Shown here piece by piece: positions 11,574 through 59,522 of a stretch of DNA of 64,000 bases. The notes below the pieces were generated by a model that worked only from the letters and a program-made list of their open reading frames with translations, was not told the DNA's origin and did no database searches. Where the stretch lies: the NCBI GenBank assembly GCA_001296005.1, contig LJHR01000009.1, forward strand, positions 434,001 through 498,000. Direction: 5' to 3'. The translations under genes and the position numbers were made by a program. Position 1 is the first letter of the stretch. Every line of letters starts with the position of its first letter. Origin of the DNA: an alpha proteobacterium AAP38 (GTDB taxonomy: Bacteria > Pseudomonadota > Alphaproteobacteria > Azospirillales > Azospirillaceae).

Positions 11574-11673
11574 ACCACCGGTCATACTTTATGACCGGTG
11601 GTGCGGCGGTGACTACCGCCGCGCCGACCATGCGGCGTAGACAAGGGCGCGGATGCGCTCGCCGGCGATTGAG
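11574..11673 (-). repeat. Four-hairpin dispersed element, copy I
   Basis: Read on the minus strand from 11673: lead CTCAATCGCCGGCGA; hairpin A with stem GCGC and loop ATCC (11647-11658); linker CTTGTCTA; hairpin B CGCCG/CGGCG with loop ATGG and one mismatch (11622-11637); hairpin C GCGGCGGT/ACCGCCGC with loop AGTC (11603-11622); hairpin D, a perfect 13-bp stem (11574-11586 with 11590-11602). It has the same order and loops as the copies at 21921, 58987 and 59425. It lies in sense orientation downstream of the stress-protein gene. Confidence 0.75.
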
Positions 11674-11714
11674 CGGCACGAAATCTTGACCATCGGTCAT
11701 GATTTCGTGCCGCT
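11672..11714 (-). repeat. Long near-perfect inverted repeat after the stress-protein gene
   Basis: A 14-bp stem (11672-11685 with 11701-11714), one T-T mismatch, a further 5-bp stem (TGACC/GGTCA) and an ATC loop. It begins 9 nt after the Usp stop codon and abuts repeat copy I. It lacks a T run, so it may stabilise or process the 3' end rather than act as an ordinary terminator. Confidence 0.6.
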
Positions 11715-11723
11715 GGGAAAAGA

Positions 11724-12587
11724 TCAATGGGCCAGCAGCAAGGGCAGCGTCGTCTGGTTCAGCATGGCGCGCGTCACCCCGCCCAGGATCAGTTCCCGCA
11801 GCCGTGAATGGCCATAGCCGCCCATGACCAGAAGATCGGCCCCAACGTCCGCACAGGCATCCTGGAGCTGTTGTGCCACGCTGCCGGTGCCGGACAGTTT
11901 GTGATACTGCGCCGGGACATTGTGCCAGGCCAGGTAATCGACGACGGGGGCTGCTTCCTCCGCGTCGGTGCGCATCGTATCGACACCCAGTACATGCACC
12001 GCGTCGGCACCGGTCAGCAGGGGCATGGCCAGGGCCAGGGCGCGCGCCGACTGGGTGCGGCCATTCCAGGCGATGGCGACGCGGCGACCCAGGACAACGG
12101 GCGTCTGCTCCGACGCCACCAGCAGGGGGCGCCCGCCTTCCAGCAAGGCCGCCTCCAGACCCACCAGAACCGCTGTCCGGTCCTCCTTTGCGACCGATGG
12201 GAAAACGGTGACGTCCGACAGGCGGGCGGCGGCGGCCATGACATCCTCTGTCACGCCGGCCGCTTCGGTGAAGCTGCCGCTGACGCGGTCGCTGCCGGGC
12301 GCACGCTCGCAATAGACGCCACCGGCGGCGGCCAGCGCCTTGTCCAGATGGTCGCGGGCCTTGGCGGCGTGGCTCTTGTTCTCCTGTTCCAGGGATTTCA
12401 TCAGATCCTGGATCAGGGCGCCGGACAGGCCCTCGCCCACCATCGGCATCACATCGCGCGGGTCGGCGCGCAGATAGAGGGCGGCGACATTGCCCTTGGC
12501 CGGTGTCGCCAGCAGCAATGCCGACCCCAGGGCGGCGGCATCGCGCGCACCGCCGGTAACGAAACAAGTGATCTTGCGGAAAGCCAT
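11724..12587 (-). CDS. Universal stress protein (UspA family)
   Basis: A 287-residue protein long enough for two Usp folds. The C-terminal half (about 150-287) is a clear Usp domain: RRVAIAWNGRTQSARALALA and the ATP-loop-like MGGYGHSRLRELILGGVT, followed by MLNQTTLPLLLAH. The N-terminal half (MAFRKITCFVTGGARDAAAL onward) is a degenerate second copy lacking the G-x-G-x-H motif. Usp proteins help survival under starvation or low oxygen. The upstream same-strand neighbour, a phosphotransferase/ATPase fusion, is found beside usp genes in many proteobacteria. A possible FNR/FixK-like box lies about 90-100 nt upstream. Confidence 0.93.
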   Translation of the reverse strand: MAFRKITCFVTGGARDAAALGSALLLATPAKGNVAALYLRADPRDVMPMVGEGLSGALIQDLMKSLEQENKSHAAKARDHLDKALAAAGGVYCERAPGSDRVSGSFTEAAGVTEDVMAAAARLSDVTVFPSVAKEDRTAVLVGLEAALLEGGRPLLVASEQTPVVLGRRVAIAWNGRTQSARALALAMPLLTGADAVHVLGVDTMRTDAEEAAPVVDYLAWHNVPAQYHKLSGTGSVAQQLQDACADVGADLLVMGGYGHSRLRELILGGVTRAMLNQTTLPLLLAH

Positions 12588-12675
12588 GACCGGTCCCCCT
12601 TGTGCCGTTTCGCGGGCCATTGCCGCCTGGAAACGCATCCTTGACCCAGCATCACGCCATACCCGGTGCCGGGCA

Positions 12676-12689
12676 TTGACATGGATCAC
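12676..12689. promoter_or_regulatory. Possible FNR/FixK-type box upstream of usp
   Basis: TTGAC-ATGG-ATCAC at 12676-12689 matches the TTGAY-N4-RTCAA consensus of FNR/FixK-like oxygen regulators except at the last base. It lies in the 163-bp gap upstream of the stress-protein gene, whose homologues are often induced by low oxygen. A chance match is possible. Confidence 0.35.
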
Positions 12690-12750
12690 CCGGAACCGGT
12701 CCCATCATAACAGATGGTCCACAAAATTGTCGAAGAACAGGGTAGGGGGA

Positions 12751-14352
12751 TCAGCGCGCTATGTGGCGGCGGGCAATCGCGGTGGTTTCGTCGGCATTGC
12801 CGCTGGCGGGGATCACCTCCCACCGCATGTCGCCCAGATCATAGGCGGCCTGACGGCGGACAATCGCCGTGGTGGCGTCCGACGCATCGCCGCGCCGCCG
12901 TGCCACGCGGGCCAGGGTGACGGCCTGATCGGCGACCAGCCATAGGCCGGTAAAGCCGGCACCGGCCGCCTGGGCCACGTCTTCCACCGCCTGACGCTGA
13001 TCCGGGCGGGCATAGACGGCATCGCAGATGACGGCATGATGCCCGTCCAGGGCCAAACCGGCGCGCCCCGCCATCTCCGCATAGGTGCGGTCTGAATGGT
13101 CGTGGCCATAGAAACTGTCGGGCAGGGCCTGATCCTCCGCCACGCCGGCCAGGGATTTGCGCAGTGCGTCCGACCGCAGGATCACCGCCCCCGGTGCCGG
13201 CCCCAGCGTCGGGGCCAGGGCACGGGCCAGGGTGGTCTTGCCCGTGCCTGACAGGCCGCCAATGGCCAGCAACTGGGCCGGCGGCGGCGACAGCAGCCGG
13301 TTGGCCAGCGCCAAATAGGATTGTGCCTCCGCCCGCATCGCCGCCGCCTTGTCCGCATCGGCCTGCCCAGCAGCGGCGGAGGCCGTCAGATGCGCGCGGA
13401 TGGCGGCGCGCACCGACATGAAAAGCGGCAGCAGCGAAAGGCCGGACAGATCGCCGGTCAGGTCCAGATAGCGGTTGAACAGGATATTAGCGTGGCTGCG
13501 CAGGCGGCGATGTTCCAGATCCATCAGCAGGAAAGCCAGATCATAGAGAACATCCGTCACCGCGATGCGGTCACCGAATTCGACACAGTCAAAGGGCACG
13601 GGCCGCCCGTCCAGCATGACGATATTGCGCAGGTGCAGATCACCATGGCAGTGGCGGATATAGCCGGCGTCCCGCCGCCGGTCGATCAGGTCGCCGCCTG
13701 TTGACAATGCCTGTCGTGTGGTGCGGTCCAGCCGGTCCACGGCCCCGGTATCAAACAGGGTTCCATGTTTGCGCATCTCGCGGATGTTGGTATGGGCCAG
13801 ATCGGTCATCTCCTCGATGCCGGGCGCATTCGGCCTGGGTTCAGCACCCTCATGGAATTCCGCAATGGTGGCGGCCAGATCGCGCATGATGGCGGGCGAC
13901 AGGGTGCCGTCCGCCGCCATCCGGTCCAGCAGCGCTGTCTGCGCAAAACGCTGCATGGTGACCAGATATTCCAGTACCGACGGGTCCGGCCCGCCATCGG
14001 CGGCCACCGGTGCCTGTTCAACCAGACGGATAGGGCCATTGCCATCCCGGACCAGCCCGCCAACACCCAGATAAAGCGACGGCGCCGTCCGCCGGTTCAG
14101 GGCCAGTTCTGCCTCGCACGCATCAAGGCGCTGCGACAGGGTGGCATAGTCGAAGAAAGGGTAGGTTACGGCCCGCTTCATCTTGAACGCACGGTTGCCG
14201 GCCATGAAAATGCGGGCTGCGTGCGTGTCGATGCGGTCGACCTTGTTTCCGGGTGGCAATCCATGGGTGGCGGCGTCGCTCAACAGGGCGATGGCCCGCG
14301 TCTGGGCGCCCTCTCCGACACTCTTGTCGCTGTCCGCCGGACTGCTGTGCAT
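12751..14352 (-). CDS. Aminoglycoside-phosphotransferase-like / AAA ATPase fusion protein
   Basis: About 533 residues in two parts. Residues 1-340 are a kinase-like APH fold with the catalytic loop YIRHCHGDLHLRNIVMLDG (H-x-D-x-x-x-x-N) and a following VPFDCVEFGD. Residues 350-533 are a P-loop domain with Walker A GGLSGTGKTTLARALA and a zeta-toxin/gluconate-kinase-like layout (RSDALRKSL; DAVYARPDQRQAVEDVAQAA). This fusion is widespread in proteobacteria; its substrate is not established to my knowledge. I chose ATG 14352 (AAGGG 9 nt upstream) over GTG 14361. The next gene on the strand is the stress protein, which suggests a shared stress role. Confidence 0.9.
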   Translation of the reverse strand: MHSSPADSDKSVGEGAQTRAIALLSDAATHGLPPGNKVDRIDTHAARIFMAGNRAFKMKRAVTYPFFDYATLSQRLDACEAELALNRRTAPSLYLGVGGLVRDGNGPIRLVEQAPVAADGGPDPSVLEYLVTMQRFAQTALLDRMAADGTLSPAIMRDLAATIAEFHEGAEPRPNAPGIEEMTDLAHTNIREMRKHGTLFDTGAVDRLDRTTRQALSTGGDLIDRRRDAGYIRHCHGDLHLRNIVMLDGRPVPFDCVEFGDRIAVTDVLYDLAFLLMDLEHRRLRSHANILFNRYLDLTGDLSGLSLLPLFMSVRAAIRAHLTASAAAGQADADKAAAMRAEAQSYLALANRLLSPPPAQLLAIGGLSGTGKTTLARALAPTLGPAPGAVILRSDALRKSLAGVAEDQALPDSFYGHDHSDRTYAEMAGRAGLALDGHHAVICDAVYARPDQRQAVEDVAQAAGAGFTGLWLVADQAVTLARVARRRGDASDATTAIVRRQAAYDLGDMRWEVIPASGNADETTAIARRHIAR

Positions 14353-14401
14353 GCGCAACACCCTTGTCCCGATCCAACATGTAAGCGAACGACGTTACAA
14401 G

Positions 14402-14440
14402 TAATCTATCGCCAGAGAAGCCTGTCTCCTTTAATCTATC
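14402..14440. promoter_or_regulatory. Direct repeats TAATCTATC, 30 bp apart
   Basis: TAATCTATC occurs at 14402-14410 and 14432-14440, exactly 30 bp (about three helical turns) apart, between the divergent phosphotransferase/ATPase and PEPC-like genes. That spacing suits a regulator binding the same DNA face. The protein is unknown. Confidence 0.35.
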
Positions 14441-14579
14441 ACTTCAATCCTGGGGGGTGATGCAGACTGATTATGTCCGCCATACCCCTTTCGGCGTTGA
14501 CAGATGTAGTGAAATTACAGCACCCTGCGACGCTGCGCCGCAACAGAATGCGGCCCTTTCGCAGAAGATGGAAGCCCCC

Positions 14580-17500
14580 ATGCCGCTGGACCCCGCCATG
14601 CCCCAAGCCGCCGCCCCGTCTGATCTGGAATTCCTGGGCACTACCACGGCCAAGGGGGCTTTGCTGTCCACTAAACAGGCGCGCTTCCCGGCACCCAAGG
14701 GCCTGGATGTACGCGCCCTGGCGGGCGATCTGATGACGCAGCTTGACCGGTTCAGCGCCGATGCCAAGCAGGACCCTTTCGCCAATCCCGTCATGCTGCT
14801 GGCCCTTGATATTTCCCGCCGCGTCGGTGCCGGTGAATTGTCGCCGGGCGCCTTGGAGCAGTTGATTCAGTATCTGTCGGCGGAGGGTTTTCTGGCCCGC
14901 GCCGCGCGTCTCTCTAATTACTTGGGCGAGGCGTCGCCCGAAGCCAATGCCAGCCGTATGGAAGAGTTGCTGGACGTCGCCGCCGCTGGCAGCGGCGGGG
15001 AGCCGCTGACGTTTGAGGCGTTCCAGAAACTGGTGGAGAAGGAGGTGTTCGGTATCGTTATTACCGCGCATCCGACCTTCAACCTGTCGGGCGCGCAGAT
15101 GACGACCATGGCCTGTCTGGCCACGGGCCGCGACCAGAATGGCAAGCGCCTGTCGGCGGAGGCACGCGAAAGCCTGATCCGGCAAATGGCGACGGCGGAG
15201 CACGCGCCCGAAGACATGTCGCTGACCCGCGAACATGAACTGTCGCTGGACGCCATCGCCAATATCCAAAGCGCCATCCGCACGCTGTACCGCGCCGTCC
15301 TGCGCGTGGGCCGCAAGCATTATCCTGAGCGCTGGACCGAACTGACGCCGCGCCTGCTGACGGTGGCCAGCTGGGTTGGCTATGATCTGGATGGCCGGTC
15401 GGACATCCGCTGGTCCGATACGCTGCATAAGCGCCTGATCGTGCAGCAGCGGCAGCTGCGTTACTATCTGTCCAACCTGCGCGATATCCGCGCCGGCGCA
15501 CCGTCGCTGGAGGATCTGCGCCATACGCTGGCTTTGATCGAAAGTCGTCTGGCCCTGGCCCTCAATCAGGTGACGGATGAAATCGCGGCCTTTGGCGGGT
15601 CGGAGGCGCAGGACCTGGACCATCTGCGCCGCATCGCCAAGCGTATGCATGAAGGTCTGCCGCTGCGTCTGGTCGATGCATCGGAGGCTATCGAGTTCGT
15701 CAATCGCGGCATCCGCCTGTCCGCCGCCATTGAGGGTGACAAGGCGCTGGCCACGGTGGAACAGCTGGCTGTGCTGCGCGCCGAGCTGGCGACCTTCGGC
15801 CTGGGCATGGCGCATACCCATGTCCGCCTGAACAGCACGCAGGTCCATAACGCCATCCGCAAGGCCGTGGGCCTGGACACGGCGGCGGATGATCCGCGCT
15901 ACCGTCAGTCCTATTTGGCCACTCTGACCGACCTTCTGGACAAGGTGGAGCCGGTCAGCATCAATTTCGGCTCCGTCGTGGCCGAACGCACCAGCGCCAA
16001 GCGCCTGTTCATGGTCGTGGCGCAGATGCTGAAATATTCCGATGCCCGTACGCCTATCCGCTTTCTGATCGCCGAAAGTGAAAGCGCCTTCACCGTCCTG
16101 TCGGCGCTGTATTTCGCCAAGCTGTTCGGGGTGGAGGAGCGTGTCGATATCAGCCCGCTGTTCGAAACCGAAAAGGCCCTGGAAACCGGCAGCCGCATCA
16201 TTGAACAGCTGCTTGAGAACCCGCATTACCGCGCCTATGTGCAAAAGCGTGGGCGTCTGTGCATCCAGACCGGCTATTCCGATGCCGGCCGCTATCTGGG
16301 CCAGACGCCGGCCAGCGCTTCGATCGAGCGTCTGCGCCTGCGCGTCATGCGGCTGTTCACGCGCCACACGCTGGAAAATGTGCAGCTGGTGATCTTTGAC
16401 ACGCATGGCGAAAGCATCGGTCGCGGCGGTCACCCCGCCGGCCTGCATAACCGCCTGGCCTATGTCAGCCCGCCGGCCACGCTGGCCTTTGCTGCCAAGC
16501 ACAATATCGAGCTGAAGCAGGAAGTCAGCTTCCAGGGTGGCGACGGCTACACCTATTTCGTCACCCCGGCTTCGGCGCTGGCCGTTGTCACCCGTATTCT
16601 GGAATATATGATCGGCACGGCCAAGCCGGACCTGGATCATGACGTCTTCTATGCCAAGGGCGACTATATCCGGGAGTTCTTCACCACCGTGAAGGCCTTC
16701 CAGGTCGGGCTGGTCGAAGACCCGAATTATGGTGAGTTGCTGGCCGCCTTCGGCACCAACCTGCTGTTCCCCAGCGGCAGCCGCGCCATCAAGCGCCAGC
16801 ATGATGCGGCGCCCGATCCGGCGGCCCGTGTCATGGCCGGCCAGTTCCGGGCCATTCCCCACAATGCGGTATTGTTGCAGATGGGCCTGCCGGCCAATGC
16901 CCTTTCGGGCGTGGGGGAGGCCATCGACCGTGATCCCGAACAGTTCCGGTCGCTCTACGCCACCTCGGCCCGGTTCCGTGAGTTGATGGGCATTGTCGTC
17001 TATGGTGCCGCCGTCAGCTGCCCCGACGCGCTGAAGGCTTATGTCGATACGCTGGACCCCGGTCATTGGCTGACGCGCGCCGCGCGGTCGGAAAACCCGC
17101 TGGAGGCCGATGATATGCGCCGCATCGCGGCGGTGCTGGAGGAGACGCCGACGCAGGCGCGTCTGGTCCGCATCTTTCGCAAGCTGTATCGCGATTACGG
17201 CGTGCTGCGCCAGAATCTGGAGCGGGCAGGGGCGGCGCCTAAGCCGAACCCCGACCTGGACCGGCACTTGTCGCTGCTGCATGCCGTGCGCCTGTCGCTG
17301 ATCCATCAGGTCTACCGGCTGGCGGTTCATATCCCTGAATTCTCCAGCCAGCATTCGATCACCAACCAGCGGCTGGTGACGCGCATGCTGCATCTGGATG
17401 TGCCCTGGGCCCTGGACCAACTGGCCCGCATCTTCCCGGCGCGTACCGATGTGACCCTGGATGAAGGGTTCGGGGAGGTCGCTACCTATGTCAGCGATGA

Positions 17501-17615: not shown

Positions 17616-17639
17616 TCTGCCTGTTTCACACATAAAAAA

Positions 17640-17672
17640 GGGGGTGACGGTTCAATCCGTCACCCCCTTTTT
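17640..17672. terminator. Bidirectional rho-independent terminator
   Basis: GGGGGTGACGG (17640-17650) pairs with CCGTCACCCCC (17657-17667) around TTCAAT. A T run follows on each strand (A6 before, T5 after), so it can end both the PEPC-like gene and the convergent small gene. Confidence 0.93.
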
Positions 17673-17694
17673 GCTGGGTTCTGGCTACCGGCTT

Positions 17695-19007: not shown

Positions 19008-19011
19008 CGCG

Positions 19012-20012: not shown

Positions 20013-21866
20013 TCAACGCCGGCCGAACAGCCGCTCGATATCGCCCAGCTTCAGTTCCACATAGGTGGGGCGGCCATGATTGCACTGGCCGGAATGGGGG
20101 GTGGCCTCCATCTGGCGCAGCAGGGCGTTCATTTCATCGACATTCATGGGCCGGCCCGCCCGTACACTGCCATGGCAGGCCATGCGGGAACAGATGGCGT
20201 CCAGCTTTTCCTTCAGCGCGTGGGCGTCGCCCATTTCGGCCAGTTCGTCGGCGATGTCCCTGATCAGCCCGCGCACATCTGCCCGCGCCCCCAACATGGC
20301 CGGCACCTCCCGCACCACGATGGCGCCCGACCCGAAGCTTTCCAGGACCAGTCCCATATCGGCCAACTCGTCGGCGCGTTCACCCACCCGTTCGGCATCG
20401 GCGGGGTCCAGTTCCACCACCTCCGGGATCAGCAGGCCCTGGCGCTTCACCCCGCCGCCCAGCATTTCCTTCTTCATACGCTCATAGACCAGCCGCTCAT
20501 GGGCCGCGTGCTGGTCCACGATGACGATGCCGTTTTCGGTCTGCGCCACGATGTAGGTGGCGTGAAGCTGCGCGCGGGCGGCACCCAACGGGAAGCTGGG
20601 CGGGGTGGCGGCGATGGCATCGGCTTCCTCCGCACGGGCCGCCGGGGCAAAACTTTGCGCGGGGGCCGTCATCGGCTGCGGTGCCTGGAACTGCCACGCC
20701 GCCTCCGCCATTTCCCGGTTCACAGGCGGCGGGGCATGGTGGGTGTGGGCATAGGGCGGGGGTGCTGCCGGGCGCTGCGGTTCCCACAGCAGGCTGGTCT
20801 GGGGGGCCACGCGCGGGGTCAGGCTGGCCAGCGTATCGGCGGCAACGGTGGTGCTGGCGCGGTGGCCAGCGGCGGCCAGGGCATGCTTCAACGCCCCGAC
20901 GATCAGGCCCCGGATCAGGGCCTGATCGCGGAACCGCACCTCCGTCTTGGCCGGATGCACGTTCACATCCACGTCATGCGGGTTCAGCGACAGGAACAGG
21001 GCCAGTACGGGGTGCCGGTCACGCGCCAGGAAATCCGCATAGGCCCCGCGCACCGCGCCCACCATCAACCGATCCTTCACGGGACGGCCATTGACGAACA
21101 GATACTGTCCGGCGGCGGTGGGCTTGTTATAGGTGGGTAGGCCGATATGCCCGACCAGCCGCACACCGGCCCGTTCGGCATTCACCGGGATGGCATTTTC
21201 CTGAAACTCCCGACCCAGAACGGCACCCAGGCGGGACAGGCGCGCGGCCTCTTCCTCCCCGCTGTTTGACGTCAGGCGGACGGGCGTCCGGCCTTCATCT
21301 GTCACGGTAAAGGCGACATGCGGATGGGCCATGGCGAGGCGTTCGACCACGTCGATGGCATGCTGGCTTTCCGTGCGGCTGGTTTTCAGGAATTTCAGGC
21401 GGGCCGGCGTGGCAAAGAACAAGTCCCGCACCTCCACCCGTGTGCCAAGGCCACCGGGGGCCGGACCGACGGGGTGGACACTGCCGCCTTCCACCAGGAT
21501 GGCGCTGGCATGATCCGCGCTTTCCGTACGGCTGGTGATGGTCAGGCGGCTGACGGCGCCGATGGAGGGCAGGGCCTCGCCGCGAAAGCCCAACGTGCGG
21601 ATATCGGTCAGGTCGCCATCTGGCAGCTTGGACGTGGCGTGCCGTTCCACGGACAGCGCCAGCTGTTCCGGGTCCATGCCGCACCCATCATCGGCCACCG
21701 ACAGCAGCGCCTTGCCGCCATCACGCAGGGTGATGTCGATGCGCCGGGCACCGGCATCCAGCGCGTTCTCCACCAACTCCTTCACGGCGGCGGCAGGACG
21801 CTCCACCACCTCGCCGGCGGCGATCTGGTTGACGAGATTATCGGGAAGGCGGCGGATGATCGGCAT
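20013..21866 (-). CDS. mutL: DNA mismatch repair protein MutL, endonuclease-type
   Basis: A 617-residue MutL. The N-terminal GHKL ATPase has [20 protein letters not shown] (residues 12-31), the DDGCGMDP box and a [16 protein letters not shown] lid. The C-terminal half holds the metal-dependent nicking motifs: [12 protein letters not shown] (D-Q-H-A-x2-E-x4-E), CNHGRP and the terminal FGRR. These mark the self-nicking MutL type found in species without MutH. It acts with MutS on replication errors. The middle (about 340-430) is a Pro/Ala-rich linker. The start at 21866 gives [14 protein letters not shown]; an extension to 21911 is not conserved. Confidence 0.97.
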
Positions 21867-21920: not shown

Positions 21921-22016
21921 CCATGGCGTCTGCGCCATGGCAGGCCGGCGACCGCCGGCCCGCGCACCCATGTGCGCGTAAGCCAAGCCCACGGATGTGG
22001 GCGCCCGGCGCCTGAG
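21921..22016 (-). repeat. Four-hairpin dispersed element, copy II
   Basis: Read on the minus strand from 22016: lead CTCAGGCGCCGGGCGC; hairpin A GCCCAC/GTGGGC with loop ATCC (21987-22002); linker CTTGGCTTA; hairpin B CGCGCAC/GTGCGCG with loop ATGG (21961-21978); hairpin C GGCCGGC/GCCGGCC with loop GGTC (21943-21960); hairpin D CCATGGCG/CGCCATGG (21921-21940). It starts 11 nt after the stop codon of the pentapeptide-repeat gene, in sense orientation. An outer pair AGTTATG/CATAACT (21913-21919, 22023-22029) encloses it. Confidence 0.82.
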
Positions 22017-22027
22017 GGAACACATAA

Positions 22028-23314
22028 CTATGGCACCTTGAACCCTACCACTTCCCCCAACTGTTCCCGCTTTACCTTGGTGCCCGACAGGCGCGCGCTG
22101 GTCAGGTCGGTTTCCTTCAGGTCGGCCAGCAGCAAATTGGCGAAGGAGAGATCGGCGCCTGAGAAATTGGCCTTCACCAGCCTGGCACCCGTCAGGTTGG
22201 CATAACGCAGCCTGGCCCCTGCCAGTTCCGACCGCACGAAACGGGTGGCGTCGATCTTCAGAAAGCCCAGATTGGCTTCCGACAGGTTGGCATTGCCCAA
22301 CTGCGCGTCGGTCAGGTTGATGCCGCGCAGGTCGCAGCCCGACAGGTTGGCCCCGCGCAAATCGGCCCCGGCCAGATTGCCCACCTGGATCTGCGCCGAG
22401 GACAGGTCCATACCATAGAGAATGATTCCGGGCGCATGCAGGCGGGTCAGGCAGGTATGGGACAGGCTGCCGGCGGTGCGCAGGTCATAGCCGGTCAGGT
22501 CCAGCGCCAGCCCCGCCTGTCCCGCCGTGCCCACCCATTCGGCATGCAGCTTCAGCATTTCTTCCAGCGGGCGGGGCAGGGCGCTGGCCGGCTTGCCCGC
22601 TGGCTTGTCGGTCAGGGCGCCGGCCATGTCGGCGCCCGCCATCTCCGTCATCATCAGGACGGCACCCGTCAGCACCGCGCCTTTCAGGCTGGCGCCGCGC
22701 ACATCGGCGCCCGACATGTCGGCCCCTTCCAGGATGGCACCGTCCAGCGTGGCGTTGCGCAGATTGGCGCGTACCAGCTTGGTCCCGCGCATCACGGCAT
22801 CCGTGAAGTCGGTATGCTGGGCGATGGCGCCCGACATCTTGGCCTGGGACAGGTTGGCATGGGCCAGCTTGGCGCCCTGCATGTCGGCGGGGCTGGCATC
22901 GCTTTCCACCACCACCATTTTCAGGCTGCCATCGGCGGCGCGTTCGGCCAGCGACCCGTCACGCAGATCGGCGCTGACCAGATTGGCGCCCGTAAGGTCG
23001 GCCCCCCGCAAGCTGGCGCCACGCAGATCGACCTTCACCATGGAGGCGCCGGTCAGGTTGGTTTCCCGCAGGTCTGCGGCGAACAGGGTGCAGCAATCCA
23101 GATTGGCCCCGGCCATATTGGCGCGGCGCAGGATACAACCGGTGAGATCGGCATGGGCCAGATCGCGCCCGGCAAGGTTCAGCCCGGTCAGGTCATAATT
23201 GGTCAGGACCGCGCGGGCGCCGCCCATGCGGGCATTACGGAACATCTCATGCCGCTTCAGCATCGCATCGAGTTGTTCCTGCGTCACCTTGTAAAGTGGT
23301 CGCTGTTCGACCAA
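22028..23314 (-). CDS. Pentapeptide-repeat protein with two repeat blocks
   Basis: A 428-residue protein built of A(D/N)LxG-type five-residue repeats that form right-handed beta-helices. Block one covers about 40-235 and block two about 285-425, each led by a related non-repeat segment: LDAMLKRHEMFRNARMGG near residue 15 and LEEMLKLHAEWVGTAGQA near 250. This suggests an internal duplication of a head-plus-repeats unit. There is no signal peptide or membrane helix. Some relatives bind gyrase or serve as scaffolds, but most have no known role. It is upstream of mutL on the same strand with repeat copy II between them. Confidence 0.92.
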   Translation of the reverse strand: MVEQRPLYKVTQEQLDAMLKRHEMFRNARMGGARAVLTNYDLTGLNLAGRDLAHADLTGCILRRANMAGANLDCCTLFAADLRETNLTGASMVKVDLRGASLRGADLTGANLVSADLRDGSLAERAADGSLKMVVVESDASPADMQGAKLAHANLSQAKMSGAIAQHTDFTDAVMRGTKLVRANLRNATLDGAILEGADMSGADVRGASLKGAVLTGAVLMMTEMAGADMAGALTDKPAGKPASALPRPLEEMLKLHAEWVGTAGQAGLALDLTGYDLRTAGSLSHTCLTRLHAPGIILYGMDLSSAQIQVGNLAGADLRGANLSGCDLRGINLTDAQLGNANLSEANLGFLKIDATRFVRSELAGARLRYANLTGARLVKANFSGADLSFANLLLADLKETDLTSARLSGTKVKREQLGEVVGFKVP

Positions 23315-52962: not shown

Positions 52963-53571
52963 ATGAAGCTCTATTACAAGCCCGGCGCCTGCTCTCTTGC
53001 CTCCCATATCGCCCTGCGCGAGGCGGGCTTCAATCCGGAGATCGAGGCGGTGGACCTGCCCACCCACAAGACTGCCGGCGGTGTTGATTTCTATACGATC
53101 AACCCCAAGGGCTATGTCCCCGCCCTGATCACGGACGAGGGTGAGTTGCTGACCGAAGGCGTGGCCATCATGCAGTATGTGGCCGACCTGAAGCCCGAGG
53201 CCAAGCTGCTGCCGCCGCCGGCCACGCTGGCCCGTGCCCGCGCGCAGGAAGCGCTGAACTTCATCGCAACCGAGGTGCATAAGGGTTTCAGCCCTTTTTT
53301 CAACCCCACCACGCACCCGGAAACCAAGGCCGCCGTGCCGGCCAATGTCGGTCGTCGCTTCGACGCGCTTGAGGCGCAGCTGGCCGATGGCCGTGACTAT
53401 CTGCTGGGGCCTGACTTCACGGTTGCCGATGGCTATCTGTTCACGGTTCTGGGCTGGTCGCCCTATATCGGGCTGGATCTGGTGAAGTGGCCGAACCTGT
53501 CGGCCTATCGCGCCCGCATCGCCGCCCGCCCGGGGGTACAGGCGACGCTGAAGGCGGAAGGCCTGATCTGA
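52963..53571 (+). CDS. gstA: Glutathione S-transferase, beta class
   Basis: A 202-residue GST. It opens MKLYYKPGACSLASHIALRE, in which the Cys at 10 is the beta-class catalytic residue that forms a mixed disulfide with glutathione. The N-terminal thioredoxin-like domain includes NPKGYVPALITDEG (cis-Pro) and LLTEGVAIMQYVADL. The C-terminal helical domain has YLLGPDFTVADGYLFTVLGW (N-capping motif). Proteins like this detoxify electrophiles and peroxides. It is divergent from an HxlR regulator and overlaps the following NTF2-like gene by one base (TGATG), so the two are co-translated. Confidence 0.94.
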   Translation: MKLYYKPGACSLASHIALREAGFNPEIEAVDLPTHKTAGGVDFYTINPKGYVPALITDEGELLTEGVAIMQYVADLKPEAKLLPPPATLARARAQEALNFIATEVHKGFSPFFNPTTHPETKAAVPANVGRRFDALEAQLADGRDYLLGPDFTVADGYLFTVLGWSPYIGLDLVKWPNLSAYRARIAARPGVQATLKAEGLI

Positions 53572-53966
53572 TGGACGGCACGACCCCGGCAGCACCTGAC
53601 TTCGCCGGGGTCACCGCCCTGATGGCCGATTATTTCGACGGGCTGTATCATTCCGATGCGGCCCGTCTTGGCCGGATTTTCCATCCGCGGGCGGTCTATG
53701 CCTGCGCGACGGAGGGGCGGTTGACCCATCTGACTATGGATGCCTACCTGCCCATCGTGGCGGCCCGTACGTCCCCGGCCAGCCGGGGTGAGGTGCGGCG
53801 AGATGAGGTCGTCTCCATCACGTTTGCCGGCCCCGTGACGGCCCTGGTTCAGGCGCGATGCGCCATCGGACCCAAGCATTTCACGGATTTCCTGAGCCTG
53901 GTGAAGCTGGAAGGCCAGTGGCAGATCATTGCCAAGACCTTCCATTTCGATCTGACGGAAACTTAA
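53571..53966 (+). CDS. NTF2-like (SnoaL/lumazine-binding-type) protein
   Basis: A 131-residue single-domain protein of the NTF2-like cone fold. MADYFDGLYHSDAARLGRIF near residue 16 and a late VKLEGQWQIIAKTFHFDLTE are typical of the Lumazine_bd_2/SnoaL_3 group: the start of the first helix, then the final strand with W-x-I-I/V-x-K-x-F. Members include ketosteroid-isomerase-like enzymes, but most are uncharacterised. It overlaps gstA at its start (one base) and the convergent bpt gene at its end (four bases). A detoxification-related role alongside GST is plausible but unproved. Confidence 0.88.
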   Translation: MDGTTPAAPDFAGVTALMADYFDGLYHSDAARLGRIFHPRAVYACATEGRLTHLTMDAYLPIVAARTSPASRGEVRRDEVVSITFAGPVTALVQARCAIGPKHFTDFLSLVKLEGQWQIIAKTFHFDLTET

Positions 53967-54691
53967 ATCGTCAGTGGCGCCCAGCCGTCGCGACCAAGGG
54001 CTTCCAGCGGCTGGAAATTGGCCTTGTATTCCATCTTGGGGCTGCCCTCGATCCAATAGCCCAGATAGAGATAGGGCAGCCCTTCCTGGCGGCAGCGTTC
54101 GATCATGGCCAGGATCAGATGCGTGCCAAGGCTGCGCTTGGGATCTTCAGGATCATAGAAGCTGTAGACGGCGGAATAGCCGTCCTCCAGCCGGTCCACC
54201 AGCATCGCCCCGCGCAGCCGGCCCGCCTCGTCACGGGTTTCGGCCATGAAAGTATTGACCTGTCCTTCGTCCACCATGGAGGCGAAATCGCCGGGCGTCA
54301 TACGGTTCATGTCGCTGTCGCTGTGGCGGGCATCCTGGTAGAGGGCGAAAAGCTGGAACTGCTCCATCGTCGATGCGGCGGGAACGACATCCAGCACCAG
54401 ATCGGTGTTGGCGCGCAGGATGCGGCGGTTGGTCCGGCCCGGCGCGAAGGTGGCGACCGGCACCCGCACCGGCACACAGGAACTGCACCCCGGACAGACG
54501 GGGCGATAGACGATGTCGTGGCTGCGGCGGAAGCCGGCCCGAGACAGGGCCGAATTCACCTCTGCAGCCTGCGGCCCCACCAGCCGCGTGAACAGCTTCC
54601 GCTCCACCCGGCCCAGCAGATAGGGGCAGGGCATGGGGCCGGAGCGGAAGAATTGCTGCAAGGGCCGGTGCAGGGGTGGGATGACACTCAT
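53963..54691 (-). CDS. bpt: Aspartate/glutamate leucyl-transferase (N-end rule)
   Basis: A 242-residue aminoacyl-tRNA-protein transferase (Ate1-like fold, Bpt type) that adds leucine to proteins with N-terminal Asp or Glu, marking them for ClpS/ClpAP. Family motifs are PCPYLLGRVERKLFTRLVG at residues 21-39, then YRPVCPGCSSCVPVRVPV (cysteine-rich, possibly metal or redox related), SFYDPEDPKRSLGTHLILAM and LYLGYWIEGSPKMEYKANFQ. It is the third gene of a minus-strand run after the ATP-grasp and alpha-E genes, with a 34-bp gap, and is probably co-transcribed with them. Confidence 0.95.
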   Translation of the reverse strand: MSVIPPLHRPLQQFFRSGPMPCPYLLGRVERKLFTRLVGPQAAEVNSALSRAGFRRSHDIVYRPVCPGCSSCVPVRVPVATFAPGRTNRRILRANTDLVLDVVPAASTMEQFQLFALYQDARHSDSDMNRMTPGDFASMVDEGQVNTFMAETRDEAGRLRGAMLVDRLEDGYSAVYSFYDPEDPKRSLGTHLILAMIERCRQEGLPYLYLGYWIEGSPKMEYKANFQPLEALGRDGWAPLTI

Positions 54692-54725
54692 TCGTGGCCC
54701 TGGCGCGGGGTGGTGGGGCGGGGGA

Positions 54726-55700
54726 TCAGGCCGATAGGGTACCCGGTTCGTCGATCAGGAAAAAGGCCTGTGCGATGTCATTGGAGAGCTTGCCGAAATT
54801 GATCTGCAAACCGTCCAGATATTCGTGCAGGCCCACCGAAATGACGGACTCGATGGTCTGGTTCGACAGGTTCCCCAACAGCTCGTCCGACCGTTCTAGC
54901 GGCAGGGTGCCGCGACGCAGGCGATACTTGCTATTCAGCCGGTTCAAGAGACTGTCCACCTCCCGCATGCAGACCAGCACGGAGCGCGGGAAATTGTCGT
55001 TGAACAGCAGGAAGCCCGCCACCGCCGCCGGGGTCATGCCTCTAGGATAGACGCGGCGGAAGGCGTGGTAACCGGCGGCAGAGCGCAGCAGGCTGTTCCA
55101 CTGGCTGATATCGATAGGGGTGCCGATGTCGCGCGGGCTGGGCAGCAGGGTGTGGTACTTGATGTCCAGCACGCGGGTTGCCTGATCTGCCCGCTCAAGA
55201 TTGCGGCCTAACTGGTAGAAGTACCAGCCCTGGTCGCGGAAGAAGGTACCCTCGGTAATACCCGTATGGGTCTGGCAGGCTTCCTTGATGGAGGCACACA
55301 GCCGCTGGATATTGTGCTGGGCCAGATCGGTGGCCGGTTCCAGCGCCAGCAGGCGATTATAGAACATGTTGAGATGCGCCCACATCTCGGTCGAGATCAG
55401 GGGCCGCAACTGCCGTGCATTCTCCCGCGCCGACGCGATGGCGGCGATGATGGAGGTGGGGTTGTTCTGATCCAGAACGTAGAAGTTCAGCACATTCTTG
55501 ACGCTGGCCGTCGGGTACAGCTCAAAGAAGCGCTTCTCATCGGCGTTCAGGCGCAGGATCGGTAACCAGTTGGTGGACCCGAAACTGTCGCGGGCGAAGG
55601 TTTCATGCACGTCCAGGATGCGGGCCAGATTTTCGGCACGCTCCATATAGCGGGCCATCCAGAAGATGCATTCGGCGTATCGGGCGAGAAGGGCTGCCAT
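54726..55700 (-). CDS. Alpha-E domain protein
   Basis: A 324-residue all-helical protein of the alpha-E family (named for conserved Glu in helices). It opens LLARYAECIFWMARYMERAE, then NLARILDVHETFARDS. Further motifs are SARENARQLRPLISTEMWAH, YYQLGRNLERADQATRVLD-type sequence (here FYQLGRNLERADQATRVLDI) near residue 170, and MREVDSLLNRLNSKYRL. It is the constant partner of circularly permuted ATP-grasp proteins and has been predicted to belong to a peptide- or amide-bond-forming system. It starts 14 nt after the ATP-grasp gene, so they form an operon. Confidence 0.95.
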   Translation of the reverse strand: MAALLARYAECIFWMARYMERAENLARILDVHETFARDSFGSTNWLPILRLNADEKRFFELYPTASVKNVLNFYVLDQNNPTSIIAAIASARENARQLRPLISTEMWAHLNMFYNRLLALEPATDLAQHNIQRLCASIKEACQTHTGITEGTFFRDQGWYFYQLGRNLERADQATRVLDIKYHTLLPSPRDIGTPIDISQWNSLLRSAAGYHAFRRVYPRGMTPAAVAGFLLFNDNFPRSVLVCMREVDSLLNRLNSKYRLRRGTLPLERSDELLGNLSNQTIESVISVGLHEYLDGLQINFGKLSNDIAQAFFLIDEPGTLSA

Positions 55701-55714
55701 GTCCGGTTCTCCCC

Positions 55715-57328
55715 TTACTGGCTTTGCGACTGTGACTGGGACTGGGTATGGAACGGATCGGTGCTGTCATCGGCCACCGGCTCGGTCTCCGCCTCTCCAC
55801 CTTCCGTCAGGACCCAGGTATCCTTGGACCCACCGCCCTGGCTGGAATTCACAATCAGGGTGCCTTTCTTCAAGGCCACGCGCGTCAACCCGCCGGGCAG
55901 TACCCAGGTGCTTTTGGCAGTGATGGCGAAGGGGCGCAGGTCCACATGGCGCGGCTCTATCCCTTCCTCCGTCAGGGTGGGGCAGACCGACAGCGGCACC
56001 ATTGGCTGGCTGATATAATTGGCCGGGTCCTCCAGCAGCTTGGCCCGGCATTCCTCCAACTCTGCCTTGCTGGCGCGCGGGCCGATGGTGATGCCATAGC
56101 CGCCTGCCTCACCCACCGGCTTCACAACCAGCTTGTCGAGATTGTCGAGCGTATATTGCAGCGCGTCAGGCTCGCGGCAGATATGGGTATCGACATTGGG
56201 GATGAGAGCGTCTTCACCCAGGTAATATTTGATCATGCGCGGGACATAGGCATAGACGGCCTTGTCATCGGCCACACCCGTCCCGATGGCATTGGCCAGC
56301 GCCACATTGCCCTTGCGATAGGCCTCGAAAATCCCCGGCACGCCCAAAAGGCTATCGGGATTGAAGGCCTTGGGGTCCAGGAAATCATCGCCGATGCGGC
56401 GATAAATGCTGTCCACGCGGCGCAGGCCGCCGGTGGTTTTCATATAGACCTTGTCGTCGATGACGGCCAGATCGCGCCCTTCCACCAGCGGCACGCCCAT
56501 CTCGCGCGCCAGGAAAATATGCTCGAAATAGGCGGAGTTGTAGGCGCCGGGCGACAGCAGCACCACCTGCGGGTCATAGCTGTCGACATCCGCGCGGGGC
56601 GGTGCGATCTCGCACATGGCCTCCAGCAGCTTGGCGCCGTAATTCTCCACATTGCGCAGGCCAATATCCCCCATCAGATCGGGGAAGGCGCGCAGCATCA
56701 TGTGGCGGTTTTCAACGACATAAGACACGCCCGACGGCACGCGGCCATTATCCTCCAGCACCCGGAACGTGCCCTCATGGTCACGCACCAGATCGACGCC
56801 GGCAATGTGGATATAGGTCTTGAAGGGCAGGGTGATGCCCTGCATCTGCGGCCGGTAATTGGCATTGCCCAGCACCAGTTCGGCGGGAATGATCCCATCC
56901 TTCAACACATGCTGGTCATGATAGATATCGTGCAGGAACATGTTCAGCGCCGCGATGCGCTGCTGCACGCCCTTTTCCAGATGCGCCCATTCCTTGGCCG
57001 CGATGATGCGGGGGATCACATCGAAGGGCAGGATACGGTCAACGGCCTTGGCATCGCTATACACCAGAAAGGTGATGCCCAGATTATACAGCTCCCGCTC
57101 CGCGTCGGACGCGCGGCGTCGCAGATCATCATATTGCAACTGTCGAAGCCGGTCCTTCACGGCTTCGGTATGCGATGCCGGTTTGCTGGCCGAGCCGAAC
57201 AGCTCATCATAGAAGCCGTTGGCATCATAGGACGACAACAGGTCGTCAACACCTTTTCCAGACCCGCTCAACAGAGCCCCCTGCGCCCTTCGTGCCATGC
57301 GATCCGCTGTCGAGGGCGATGCCGACAA
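55715..57328 (-). CDS. Circularly permuted type 2 ATP-grasp protein
   Basis: A 537-residue ligase-fold protein of the CP-ATP-grasp group (DUF404/DUF407 type). Signatures are YDELFGSASKPASHTEAVKD near the start, FRVLEDNGRVPSGVSYVVEN near residue 190, VVLLSPGAYNSAYFEHIFLA near 255, and LVVKPVGEAGGYGITIGPRA near 400 (nucleotide-binding loop). The predicted chemistry is ATP-driven amide bond formation on an unknown acceptor. The C-terminus ends in a (QS)4-Q microsatellite-like tail (55718-55744). It heads a minus-strand operon with alpha-E and bpt. The usual transglutaminase partner is not adjacent. Confidence 0.94.
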   Translation of the reverse strand: MSASPSTADRMARRAQGALLSGSGKGVDDLLSSYDANGFYDELFGSASKPASHTEAVKDRLRQLQYDDLRRRASDAERELYNLGITFLVYSDAKAVDRILPFDVIPRIIAAKEWAHLEKGVQQRIAALNMFLHDIYHDQHVLKDGIIPAELVLGNANYRPQMQGITLPFKTYIHIAGVDLVRDHEGTFRVLEDNGRVPSGVSYVVENRHMMLRAFPDLMGDIGLRNVENYGAKLLEAMCEIAPPRADVDSYDPQVVLLSPGAYNSAYFEHIFLAREMGVPLVEGRDLAVIDDKVYMKTTGGLRRVDSIYRRIGDDFLDPKAFNPDSLLGVPGIFEAYRKGNVALANAIGTGVADDKAVYAYVPRMIKYYLGEDALIPNVDTHICREPDALQYTLDNLDKLVVKPVGEAGGYGITIGPRASKAELEECRAKLLEDPANYISQPMVPLSVCPTLTEEGIEPRHVDLRPFAITAKSTWVLPGGLTRVALKKGTLIVNSSQGGGSKDTWVLTEGGEAETEPVADDSTDPFHTQSQSQSQSQ

Positions 57329-57943
57329 TGGCTTCGTTTCGCATCCGCGAGATTGAGATTAACAGATCAGTAAGGTTTGACCAGAGGCTGTGTGAACGCT
57401 CGCAACGGTTTTAACAGTTGTGATTTTTTTGCCCTGCGGTGAGGCGGAGAGTGGCTGACAGTTGTGGCTTTGGCGTCCGCACTCCCGTGTGAAAAACTTT
57501 TTCGGAGGGGGCGGTGATACCGCTCCGAAAAGCACTACCTGCGAATGAAGGCCGGTATATGAAACGCTGTGCACCATAAAATGAGGGGGTGTTTCACAAG
57601 GTTGGGGGGGCGGCCCCGGAAGGAGCGGGCCAACGCCCCTCGTGCAACGTTGTGCGACATAAAATAAGGGTATGTTCCGGAGGGCCGGCTATTGCCGCTC
57701 CGAAAGCAAGCAGTTCCGAATGCCGTGATGGGGATGGCATGCAGGTGTGAGGGCGGCGATGATGGAAGTAATTTAGCACAGTAGCGGCGGAAAGTCAGCG
57801 GTTGGGGCCATTGCTGAGATGGTGAGAACGATCCATTTAAAAGGAACCAAGCCTGTGACCCAAGCCCCCGCGCCCCCACCCTGCCAGCCATTCATGCAGG
57901 AACTCTTTCGGTCGGCGTCACAACCGCCTATATAGGGGCCGCA
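57329..57943. other. 615-bp divergent intergenic region with duplicated modules
   Basis: No credible gene. Two related hairpins, CGGAG...CTCCG at 57503-57527 and 57678-57702, are each followed by GAAA(A)GCA. Between them two copies of a 33-35-nt motif (AACG-TGTGC-CATAAAAT-AGGG-TGTT type) lie at 57562-57596 and 57647-57679, 85 bp apart. The AT-rich CATAAAAT cores stand out. The region should hold promoters for the ATP-grasp operon and for the gene at 57944. Confidence 0.55.
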
Positions 57944-58480
57944 ATGATGCTCCGGCTTGTGGCGATTACCCCGATCATGAAGCGCACCTATACCCGCAAG
58001 GAAGTGCAGGACCTGCTGGGCGCCCTGGAAGGCCAGGCGCGGGAGGCCATTCGGTTGGCCAAGCAGGCGGAGGAAGAGGCGGCCAAGGATAGTTTCCTGG
58101 CCTATAACGACTTCCGCAACAAGGTGGGAGAGTTCAGGGCGCTGTGCATCCTGATCGAGGGGCGCCTGAAATCCGTCGATACGGCGCGGGTCGATGACCT
58201 GAAAGAGGAATATGCGCGGCTGGATACGCTGATGCTGGGCCTTCTGGTCCGGGCGTCGATGCGGTTCTTCTTTGTGCTGTCGGCCAAGACCATGCTGCCC
58301 ATGGGGGCCCGCGACATCTTCATCGCAGAACTGCGCAGCCTGCACGACGCGGCGGAAAAGCTGCGCCGGCCCGAATATTCCGCCACCATGGGCGACAAGT
58401 TGAAGGGCGATCTGGAAACGGCCGAACTGATCCTGGAAGAGATCATCGACAAGGCGCCGGGAATGTTGAATTTCGGATAA
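57944..58480 (+). CDS. Hypothetical helical protein
   Basis: A 178-residue protein, helical by pattern. It contains YTRKEVQDLLGALEGQAREA near residue 16, LAYNDFRNKVGEFRALCILI near 52, LMLGLLVRASMRFFFVLSAK near 95, and a final ELILEEIIDKAPGMLNFG. The start at 57944 has AGGGG 5 nt upstream; ATG 57977 (MKRTYTRKEVQ) is an alternative with no ribosome site. No signal peptide is present; one moderately hydrophobic helix near 95-115 may not span the membrane. I recognise no family. It is convergent with rnk. Confidence 0.65.
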   Translation: MMLRLVAITPIMKRTYTRKEVQDLLGALEGQAREAIRLAKQAEEEAAKDSFLAYNDFRNKVGEFRALCILIEGRLKSVDTARVDDLKEEYARLDTLMLGLLVRASMRFFFVLSAKTMLPMGARDIFIAELRSLHDAAEKLRRPEYSATMGDKLKGDLETAELILEEIIDKAPGMLNFG

Positions 58481-58502
58481 TTGGGCGGATTGGTAGGGCG
58501 CC

Positions 58503-58535
58503 CCCTCACCCTTCCCAGGTTTGGGAGGGTGAGGG
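58503..58535. terminator. Strong hairpin between convergent genes
   Basis: CCCTCACCCTTCCC (58503-58516) pairs with GGGAGGGTGAGGG (58523-58535), with one bulged T. It has no T run, but it lies between the ends of the 57944 gene and rnk and probably limits read-through. Confidence 0.6.
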
Positions 58536-58553
58536 CAGGCTTGGTTCCCTATA

Positions 58554-58955
58554 TCAGCCGTTATTCACCACCCTGGTCACGGTGATCCGCTTTTCCCGGC
58601 GGTCCACGGTCTGATAGGTGATGGTCTGCCCCGGCGACAGGCCCAGAAGGGCGCAGCCCACAGGCGTCAGGATCGAGATGGCGTCGGGCGGCACCGGGCA
58701 GCCTTCTTCCGGCATATGCAGGGTGCCACTGTGGCTGGTGCCGATATCATCGGTGAAATGCACCTGCGACCCAAGGCGGACAAAGGGCCGGCGCGTCGCC
58801 TGATCCACGATGTCGGCACGCAGGACCTCCTGCTGCAGGAACATCGAAATCCGCGCATAAGAACGGTGCATGCTGTCAAGCAACGTCTCAAGTTTCTGCA
58901 AATCATCACGCAGGATGCGGATGGGCGGGTCGCCGATCTGGACTTTGCGATTCAT
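58554..58955 (-). CDS. rnk: Nucleoside diphosphate kinase regulator (Rnk)
   Basis: A 133-residue Rnk, related to GreA/GreB C-terminal domains. An N-terminal short coiled coil (IRILRDDLQKLETLLDSMHR) is followed by the FKBP-like domain: RLGSQVHFTDDIGTSHSGTL, PPDAISILTPVGCALLGLSP and GQTITYQTVDRREKRITVTR, which is the Rnk/Gre signature. Rnk binds RNA polymerase and influences nucleotide pools and stress responses. It is convergent with the 57944 gene. Repeat copy III lies directly upstream, in antisense orientation. Confidence 0.93.
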   Translation of the reverse strand: MNRKVQIGDPPIRILRDDLQKLETLLDSMHRSYARISMFLQQEVLRADIVDQATRRPFVRLGSQVHFTDDIGTSHSGTLHMPEEGCPVPPDAISILTPVGCALLGLSPGQTITYQTVDRREKRITVTRVVNNG

Positions 58956-59261
58956 CTTTTCCTCTAAAGCGTGTTCTGTTCAGTTCCTCAAACGCCGGCA
59001 CCGCATCCGCGGCTTGGCTTCACGGCGCATGAGCGCCGCGGCGGCAGTCGCCGCCGGAGGTGTCTTCGGTCAACCGAAAACACCTCTTTGTAAAAATACC
59101 CCCGAAAACGGGGGCGGGCACAGCAGGCCCCATCTGTTGGCAAAGGTCAACCCACCGCGACGTCGCGCCGCGAAAGGGGTAGCCCGTAATCGCCCGCACC
59201 CATTTGCGCTTCTGTGTTGTTGAGAAGGTGGGCGTAATGACAACAGAAGATGGAGTGCCCC
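58956..59261. other. Intergenic region between rnk and DUF3309
   Basis: 306 bp. It contains repeat copy III (58987-59085), a hairpin CCCCCG/CGGGGG with loop AAAA (59099-59114), and, just before the DUF3309 ribosome site, an inverted repeat CTTCTGT-TTGT (59209-59220, one bulged G) with ACAACAGAAG (59240-59249). No further gene is seen. Confidence 0.6.
58987..59085 (+). repeat. Four-hairpin dispersed element, copy III
   Basis: Read on the plus strand from 58987: lead CTCAAACGCCGGCA; hairpin A CCGC/GCGG with loop ATCC (59001-59012); linker CTTGGCTTCA; hairpin B CGGCGC/GCGCCG with loop ATGA (59023-59038); hairpin C CGGCGGC/GCCGCCG with loop AGTC (59039-59056); hairpin D 6+5 bp with loop TCAA (59058-59085). 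Stems differ from the other copies, but the order and loops agree. Confidence 0.8.
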
Positions 59262-59414
59262 ATGACGACGATCCTGCTGATCATCGTGATCCTCATCCTG
59301 ATCGGTGCCTTGCCCGCCTGGCCCTATAGCCGCGGCTGGGGCTATGGCCCGTCCGGCCTTCTGGGGACCGTGCTGATCGTCCTGCTGATCCTGGTGCTGC
59401 TGGGACGCATTTAA
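59262..59414 (+). CDS. DUF3309 small membrane protein
   Basis: A 50-residue protein reading MTTILLIIVILILIGALPAW and then PYSRGWGYGPSGLLGTVLIV, ending LLILVLLGRI. This is the DUF3309 pattern: two short hydrophobic helices around a W-P-x-S-x-x-W-G-Y-x-P-S-G loop. It is too short for usual gene calling but is unmistakable. GGAG lies 6 nt before the ATG, with a small inverted repeat just upstream (59209-59249). Function unknown; such proteins often rise under envelope stress. It is flanked by repeat copies III and IV in the same orientation. Confidence 0.93.
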   Translation: MTTILLIIVILILIGALPAWPYSRGWGYGPSGLLGTVLIVLLILVLLGRI

Positions 59415-59424
59415 GACCCGTCCC

Positions 59425-59522
59425 CTCAAGCGCCGGGCGCTGCCTCCGGCAGCTTGGGCTTACGCAGGCACGTGCCTGCGGGCCGGCGGTCGCCGGCCTG
59501 GGGGGCATGGACCATGCCCCCC
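59425..59522 (+). repeat. Four-hairpin dispersed element, copy IV
   Basis: Read on the plus strand from 59425: lead CTCAAGCGCCGGGCGC; hairpin A GCTGCC/GGCAGC with loop TCC (59439-59453); linker TTGGGCTTA; hairpin B CGCAGGC/GCCTGCG with loop ACGT (59463-59480); hairpin C GGCCGGC/GCCGGCC with loop GGTC (59481-59498); hairpin D, a 10-bp stem (59500-59509 with 59513-59522). It starts 10 nt after the DUF3309 stop codon, in sense orientation. Confidence 0.82.

Follow-up and report, generated by a model that had tools for sequence, protein, structure and literature searches.

The four elements and their surroundings

The window analysed here is a 64,000-nucleotide stretch of the alphaproteobacterium AAP38 (GenBank assembly GCA_001296005.1, contig LJHR01000009.1, positions 434,001 to 498,000), and its subject is a set of four chained-hairpin elements, e1 to e4. 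A sequence-only reading had placed these elements on the two strands, and both places and strands were borne out: all four are matched by a covariance model, R1, whose seed consisted of e2 and five other copies from the same genome, with e1, e3 and e4 outside it. With filters off, the E values of the four cores range from 8.5e-20 to 2e-7, while the next-best R1 match in the window (E 0.016) falls on e4 again, on its opposite strand. The features are as follows, with G000 standing for AAP38, G006 for Niveispirillum cyanobacteriorum, and other G numbers for further genomes of the same GTDB genus (apparently Niveispirillum).

11573..11711, minus strand: e1, whole inserted unit (E, lead, A, linker, B, C, D) between convergent open reading frames (ORFs); absent at the orthologous G006 site, a 149-nt difference
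11675..11711, minus strand: e1, extra 5' hairpin E (GGCACGAAATC..GATTTCGTGCC), belonging to the G000-only insertion
11603..11674, minus strand: e1 core (lead and hairpins A, B, C); R1 match, E 2e-7
11574..11602, minus strand: e1 hairpin D; the convergent plus-strand ORF ends 1 base away, at 11572; from sequence, fold and ORFs
21922..22028, minus strand: e2 inserted unit, with a (G)CCATA flanking duplication of 5-6 bp; site empty in G003, G005, G006 and G007
21942..22017, minus strand: e2 core (lead and hairpins A, B, C); R1 match, E 8.5e-20, e2 being in the seed
58967..59082, plus strand: e3, approximate inserted unit, with a CCTCT flanking duplication; G006 has the element, G005 and G007 an empty site
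58986..59057, plus strand: e3 core (lead and hairpins A, B, C); R1 match, E 1.2e-8
59415..59526, plus strand: e4, approximate inserted unit, just 3' of the stop (59414) of a 54-aa ORF; G006 has the element, G003, G005 and G007 an empty site
59424..59499, plus strand: e4 core (lead and hairpins A, B, C); R1 match, E 1.4e-15
59500..59522, plus strand: e4 hairpin D, changed jointly on its two arms relative to the G006 orthologue

The full unit, as seen across the family described below, is about 105-150 nt long and runs from an optional 5' hairpin E through the lead CCTCARNCGCCGG(GCG), hairpin A (loop ATCC), the linker CTTGGCTTACG or a variant of it, and hairpins B, C and D. Hairpin D is frequent, not universal, and hairpin E is present in some copies (e1 and one G006 copy, for example). 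Modules can be missing or swapped: some copies consist of lead and A alone, the copy at C62:417399 (C62 being our 604-kb contig sequence) is E-B-C-D without lead and A, and some copies in other taxa have C hairpins of other types. Folded as RNA, the four elements are more stable than their dinucleotide shuffles (z of -5.4, -2.9, -5.3 and -4.4). The four-hairpin plan itself appears in full in the minimum-energy folds of e2 and e3 and only in part in the others, since e1 shows only C and D, its A and B regions being engaged in other pairings (part of A survives in the centroid), and in e4 the lead is drawn into the pairing of A.

Element e1 fills the gap between the convergent ORF ends at 11572 and 11724. 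On its 5' side, e2 begins with the final base of the upstream ORF's stop codon (ORF 22028-23314), and the downstream ORF ends at 20013. The statement that three of the four elements begin 10-50 nt past a sense stop holds for the cores, at distances of 9, 10 and 49 nt; the 5' side of e3 is an antisense gene. Names for neighbouring genes (mutL, TetR, UspA, pentapeptide repeat) were assigned by eye. Elsewhere in the window, a COG3860 RNA (RF02940, 70.4 bits, over its gathering score) lies at 8525-8581 on the plus strand, and a tRNA-Ser (GCT) at 6136-6227, also on the plus strand.

A large family with matched hairpin arms

The four elements, originally taken for a four-copy family, are a small part of a much larger one. 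Searching for further copies with R1 found them in our own genome and in all 10 others of the genus (11 of 11); AAP38 has at least 105 copies at E<=0.01 and at least 113 matches at E<=1, which are lower bounds, as 150 of 6,929 candidates were scored and e1 was outside the list. At E<=0.1 the model matches in at least 35 of 59 genomes searched, based on the best 81 matches per genome, so that weak matches were partly lost. Within the genus the number of matches ranges from 14 in G008 to at least 81 in seven of the 11 genomes. An exact gapped pattern with 26 fixed bases was found in five of 385 genomes sampled across the class, three in the genus and two outside. The same pattern matches at least 110 stretches (80 of them listed) in named records of Nitrospirillum, Telmatospirillum, Novispirillum, Rhodovarius, Sneathiella, Mesorhizobium ciceri WSM4083 and several metagenome-assembled genomes (MAGs), although draft and MAG records may contain misassigned contigs. 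Records named Aerophototrophica and Oleisolibacter are apparently the genus genomes G004 and G008, not separate GTDB genera. A looser pattern occurs 1 to 56 times in each of 12 carriers, which were chosen for having a match, and its reversed form not at all. With the e2 core as query, 72,556 plasmid records gave matches only in two N. cyanobacteriorum records, and 50,697 phage records contained no match to the family; in IMG/VR, two stretches of one contig, apparently an Azospirillum sp. RU38E prophage, do match. The patchy distribution, together with near-identical copies, suggests horizontal spread.

Tandem arrays with periods of 108, 109 and 116 nt were seen in one genus genome, G002, where the A module is also duplicated over 46 nt, and the G002 array is seemingly also the one present in the IMG/VR contig. 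By eye, these arrays (L165:2002-17836; L391, L392) sit among apparent phage structural genes, apparently of Azospirillum sp. RU38E, and mechanical ORFs read through some of them. Two similar chained-hairpin insertions, at C62:20833 (in G006) and C62:350799 (in G000), have other outer hairpins and a common GGCGGCATGGGCCGCC module, and perhaps belong to a sister family.

The claim that stems change in pairs while the fold is kept was upheld on this larger scale, and neither of the outcomes named beforehand as refuting it, a lack of additional copies or of covariation above chance, came about. Among 103 copies from our genome (102 distinct; copies in L154-L158 and L160 are outside this set), 19 of the 20 stem pairs vary on both sides, and 96.8% of stem cells are paired, against 73.0% (standard deviation 0.7) in shuffles and at most 63.2% when one side of each stem is slid, although the alignment was fitted to the model and these counts therefore lean towards it. 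Copies found by pattern agree. At the 80 listed loci the free A-stem letters are complementary in 96 of 99 copies, with 14 distinct stems, and the genome of Nitrospirillum viridazoti (L321) has a perfect inner A stem in 44 of 53 copies, with 17 different stems, the flanks and the innermost pair being fixed by the pattern. The CTCA lead, which is not part of the search pattern, is present in 92 of the 99 copies. At a single locus, e4, the two arms of hairpin D have changed jointly relative to the G006 orthologue, while hairpins B and C in the G006 copy show unpaired changes.

Covariation as strong as this is what a structured RNA class would show, whether a regulatory element of 3' untranslated regions (3' UTRs) or a processed small RNA, kept by selection on the RNA fold and dispersed only secondarily. 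The unpaired motifs also recur in distant taxa (in part fixed by the search patterns, as discussed below), the copies sit just 3' of stop codons, and 3' UTR repeats of Bradyrhizobium appear in transcript data (PMC5082802). The mismatches within the stems, however, do not have the character expected of an RNA from this strand. Selection on such an RNA should make G.T exceptions more frequent than A.C ones, yet 152 distinct rows combined contain 16 G.T against 35 A.C cells (p 0.011), or 9 against 19 when each pair and mismatch is counted once (p 0.09), where the p-values are only a rough guide because the copies share ancestry. The imbalance is seen in our own genome (13 G.T, 26 A.C) and in the other genus genomes (3 and 9), in sense copies (6 and 10) and in antisense ones (4 and 9). 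From the scarcity of G.T we infer that arm matching is kept at the level of DNA rather than in sense-strand RNA, which we have accordingly dropped as the leading explanation of the pairing. In the study of GTAG and CGTC repetitive extragenic palindromes (REPs), frequent GT pairing in stems was read as a sign of transcription (PMC3733652); the present family has no such enrichment.

Orientation and placement bear on the same question. After dropping the two weakest of the 103 copies, we analysed 101 for position; 15 overlap predicted ORFs and two have no neighbour, leaving 84 intergenic copies. Approximately 25 of these lie in convergent gaps, 5 in divergent gaps, and 32 in sense and 22 in antisense orientation to co-directional neighbours (e1, really convergent, was counted as co-directional). 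The background of gaps of at least 20 nt in 604 kb of our own sequence is 61 convergent and 87 divergent, so that the family has an excess in convergent gaps (p about 3e-6). A stop faces the copy within 20 nt on its 5' side or within 50 nt on its 3' side in 65 of the 84. The difference between sense and antisense is slight (p 0.22), and the presence of both orientations argues against a structured RNA, as do the fast turnover between species at 92% identity (see below) and the absence of any Rfam match at gathering score, where three sub-threshold hits fall near e3 and e4 and none on e2. We therefore think a structured RNA improbable. As for the earlier proposal that selection acts on the fold as RNA or single-stranded DNA, preservation of the fold through paired changes stands, while its sense-strand RNA form is disfavored by the orientation counts and the stem exceptions alike.

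Mobility and the search for a mover

Close relatives differ in which copies they carry. The site of e2 is empty in four relatives, that of e3 in two and that of e4 in three. Our contig C62 (604 kb) and the corresponding 660 kb of N. cyanobacteriorum align over 567 kb at 92.1% identity, and of the 14 core copies on the C62 stretch, seven are absent from G006 (C62:64790, 73620, 83386, 164295, e1, e2 and 574880), three are shared (e3, e4 and C62:523307), three are shortened (C62:56826, 210971 and 357838) and one, at 383131, falls in an unaligned gap. Conversely, G006 has five core-bearing insertions of its own, at 137132, 293194, 416002, 522324 and 577851, each an R1 match; a 665-nt indel at 137851, flagged by the loose pattern, was left out of this count. 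Insertions of the family are thus found in both lineages. The paired changes had been taken to speak for selection rather than simple copying; the copies are nevertheless dispersed repeats whose presence differs between species.

Dispersed intergenic palindromes that lie close to gene 3' ends, seldom in divergent gaps, and differ in presence among close relatives are REP-like in the broad sense, and the bacterial interspersed mosaic elements (BIMEs) of E. coli are chained palindromes, as in the present family. We consider it highly probable that e1 to e4 belong to a REP/BIME-like family of composite palindromic repeats, non-coding and mobile.

Several observations weigh against this assignment. 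Some empty sites depart from the flanks by 2-22 nt. The junctions are ragged: e2 has a flanking duplication of 5-6 bp and e3 one of 5 bp, e1 and C62:83386 may have degenerate ones some 10 bp long, and the remaining differing sites have none that is clear, so that no single transposition chemistry fits. Gain or loss at each site is presumed rather than polarised. No mobilising enzyme was found in the searches made. The gene calls are crude, coming from our own caller, which missed the ORF at 10835-11572 beside e1, and the position counts are approximate for that reason. Finally, the inner motifs seen across other taxa (CGCCGG, CATCCG and CTTGGCTT) are constant there by construction, as the search patterns fix these motifs and the innermost A pair, and truly constant inner motifs could also point to a functional RNA or a protein site.

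The flanking duplications at e2 and e3 raise the possibility that the family is a miniature inverted-repeat transposable element (MITE) of some DDE insertion sequence with short target duplications, with which its size and copy number are also compatible. By eye, however, the unit is bounded by the variable hairpins E and D rather than by conserved terminal inverted repeats, the duplications are inconsistent at other differing sites, and no autonomous partner was seen among the G000/G006 indels of at least 400 nt (only the longest ORF of each was inspected, by eye). A MITE is, in our judgment, an unlikely explanation. We also considered GTTC as a fixed target site and rejected it, since by eye it precedes many copies in the genus and does not precede those listed from other taxa.

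A link to a REP-associated tyrosine transposase (RAYT) had been proposed, and the family would then consist of REP doublets forming hairpins (REPINs), moved by a Y1 transposase of this kind or by an IS200/IS605 relative. The present copies are palindromic, dispersed and adjacent to stops, as GTAG REPs are (PMC3733652), and our genome does contain one RAYT-like ORF. Pfam PF01797 (Y1, covering RAYT and IS200) matches, however, in only one of the 11 genus genomes and in only one of the 12 chosen carriers, the Telmatospirillum genome (L279), the control being positive in 5 of 14 known genomes; one of the carriers is apparently the genus genome G004, and two belong to a single species. PF01797 is without a match in G006, which nevertheless has the five core-bearing insertions absent from G000. 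GTAG or CTAC occurs anywhere in only 24 of 101 copies. Moreover, the RAYT-like ORF of AAP38 (about 179 aa; L073; C62:117162-117689) is carried by a 540-nt insertion that G006 lacks and adjoins palindromes with GTAG ends, GTCGCATAAG..CGCATGCGAC, which form a different repeat. The proposed link was thus not found, and RAYT is unsupported as the mobiliser of the present family because PF01797 is scarce in carriers and our own match adjoins another repeat; mobilisation by a Y1 enzyme is very unlikely, and the family is apparently not moved by one.

The GTCGCATAAG..CGCATGCGAC palindrome deserves a comment of its own. It occurs 15 times in the 604 kb of G000 and once in the 660 kb of G006, with six further G000-only insertions, and G006 has the palindrome at the RAYT site without the gene; the imbalance is as a RAYT-driven family might show. 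Other repeats also differ between the two genomes. A G006-only insertion at C62:146233 carries a different palindrome ending in GTAG/CTAC, though PF01797 is without a match in that genome, and an insertion exclusive to G000 at C62:276459-276601 carries the palindrome GTAGCGCGGATTAGCGAAGCGTAATCCGC. Another intergenic repeat, CCCTCACCCTCCC..GGGAGGGTGAGGG-like, is absent from G006 at C62:147984, 258990, 503125 and 526587, several of these copies being directly 3' of stops by eye. At the e2 site, G001 (L200, around 2480-2790) has by eye the palindrome CGTCACCCCGGCGAAGGCCGGGGTCCAG and its reverse, resembling a CGTC-type REP pair, while about 100 nt of different sequence occupy the site in G009.

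Other candidates for a mover were also considered. PF04986 (IS91-type Y2) was found in none of the 11 genus genomes, but its control was likewise negative in all 14. At six loci outside our genome, translations inspected by eye, without a family search, gave no shared candidate among the neighbours. These look like ordinary chromosomal genes in L311, L321, L349 and L275, whereas those in L350 resemble conjugation genes and none was called in L310.

The mechanism that we would propose for the mobile repeat family is as follows. The unit would be mobilised in trans, as DNA, by some enzyme that recognises its hairpins and recurrent motifs, and copies would survive mainly 3' of stops because insertions elsewhere are lost. 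Complementarity of the arms would be kept in the DNA, either by arm-templated conversion during replication or by selection on the DNA fold. Once inserted, a copy might form a hairpin barrier of REP type within the 3' UTR, blocking 3'-5' exonucleases or attenuating transcription, by analogy with E. coli, whose REPs impede exonucleases, act in termination and stall ribosomes when near a stop (PMC5082802). A bolder and tentative version, which we hold to be possible and still rather doubtful, is that the family represents a mobile DNA class of the Alphaproteobacteria, with fixed single-stranded motifs and hairpin arms rewritten freely but together, passed between orders and into a prophage, and moved by a non-Y1 enzyme whose substrate is perhaps the complementary strand in folded form, on which the A.C exceptions would read as G.T.

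Relation to known repeats and significance

The suggestion that no described family has this layout has held so far, in that Rfam gives no match above gathering score for e1 to e4 (e1 was covered by one scan only, e2, e3 and e4 by further ones). We found no description of the layout in the literature by titles and abstract openings, a search in which subscription journals were largely uncovered and sequences in figures could not be searched, and a description may exist outside it. One Rfam family for comparison is naRNA4, which derives from a REP array. Its model (RF02564) gives a sub-threshold hit on the minus strand of e3, at 23.8 bits against a cut-off of 59.5, and e3 is not a member.

Sequence and layout set the family apart from GTAG REPs, CGTC REPs and Rfam families. 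The GTAG and CGTC REPs resemble it in being high-copy intergenic palindromes of convergent and unidirectional gaps, near 3' ends, with heterogeneous stems and a patchy distribution over species, and the CGTC REPs are mostly alphaproteobacterial, without a known transposase (PMC3733652). They are, however, single palindromes or dimers of 20-40 bp with a terminal GTAG or CGTC tag (same source), whereas the present unit strings three to five different hairpins together in a set order, has other motifs and lacks a fixed tag. By eye, a terminal unpaired GTAG tag is not among the shared motifs. A CGTC REP is defined by a terminal CGTC (or TGTC, CCTC) tag, an 8-9 bp stem starting with AT, a 4-5 nt loop and a CCA tail (PMC3733652); the CCTCA lead resembles the CCTC variant, but stems and tail differ by eye. 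CGTC or GACG occurs somewhere in 45 of 101 copies, and we noticed no fixed place for it.

Among alphaproteobacterial repeats, Br-REP1 of Bradyrhizobium is similar in having three palindromes, forming three stem-loops, in 3' UTRs, and the number of its flanking palindromes varies independently between species (PMC5082802). Its central consensus, CCGGAATCTCGAGATTCCGG (same source), is unlike the present motifs, as judged by eye without alignment. The Sinorhizobium RIME and the AB and C palindromes are likewise intergenic palindromic repeats of an alphaproteobacterium (PMC2573895), and Sinorhizobium repeats have been considered together with transcription (PMC2873474). Their difference from the present family is judged indirectly: among the plasmid records searched, the e2 core matches only Niveispirillum.

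If this assignment is correct, a large repeat family of soil and water bacteria would be a mobile element without a known mover. It would also offer a natural test of how palindromes stay palindromic, since many stems carry different matching arms between the same flanks. The case is a caution that covariation among a few copies of one genome is not proof of a functional RNA. In practice, repeats of this kind would confuse annotation and RNA-motif discovery, and they would place strong hairpins behind many genes.

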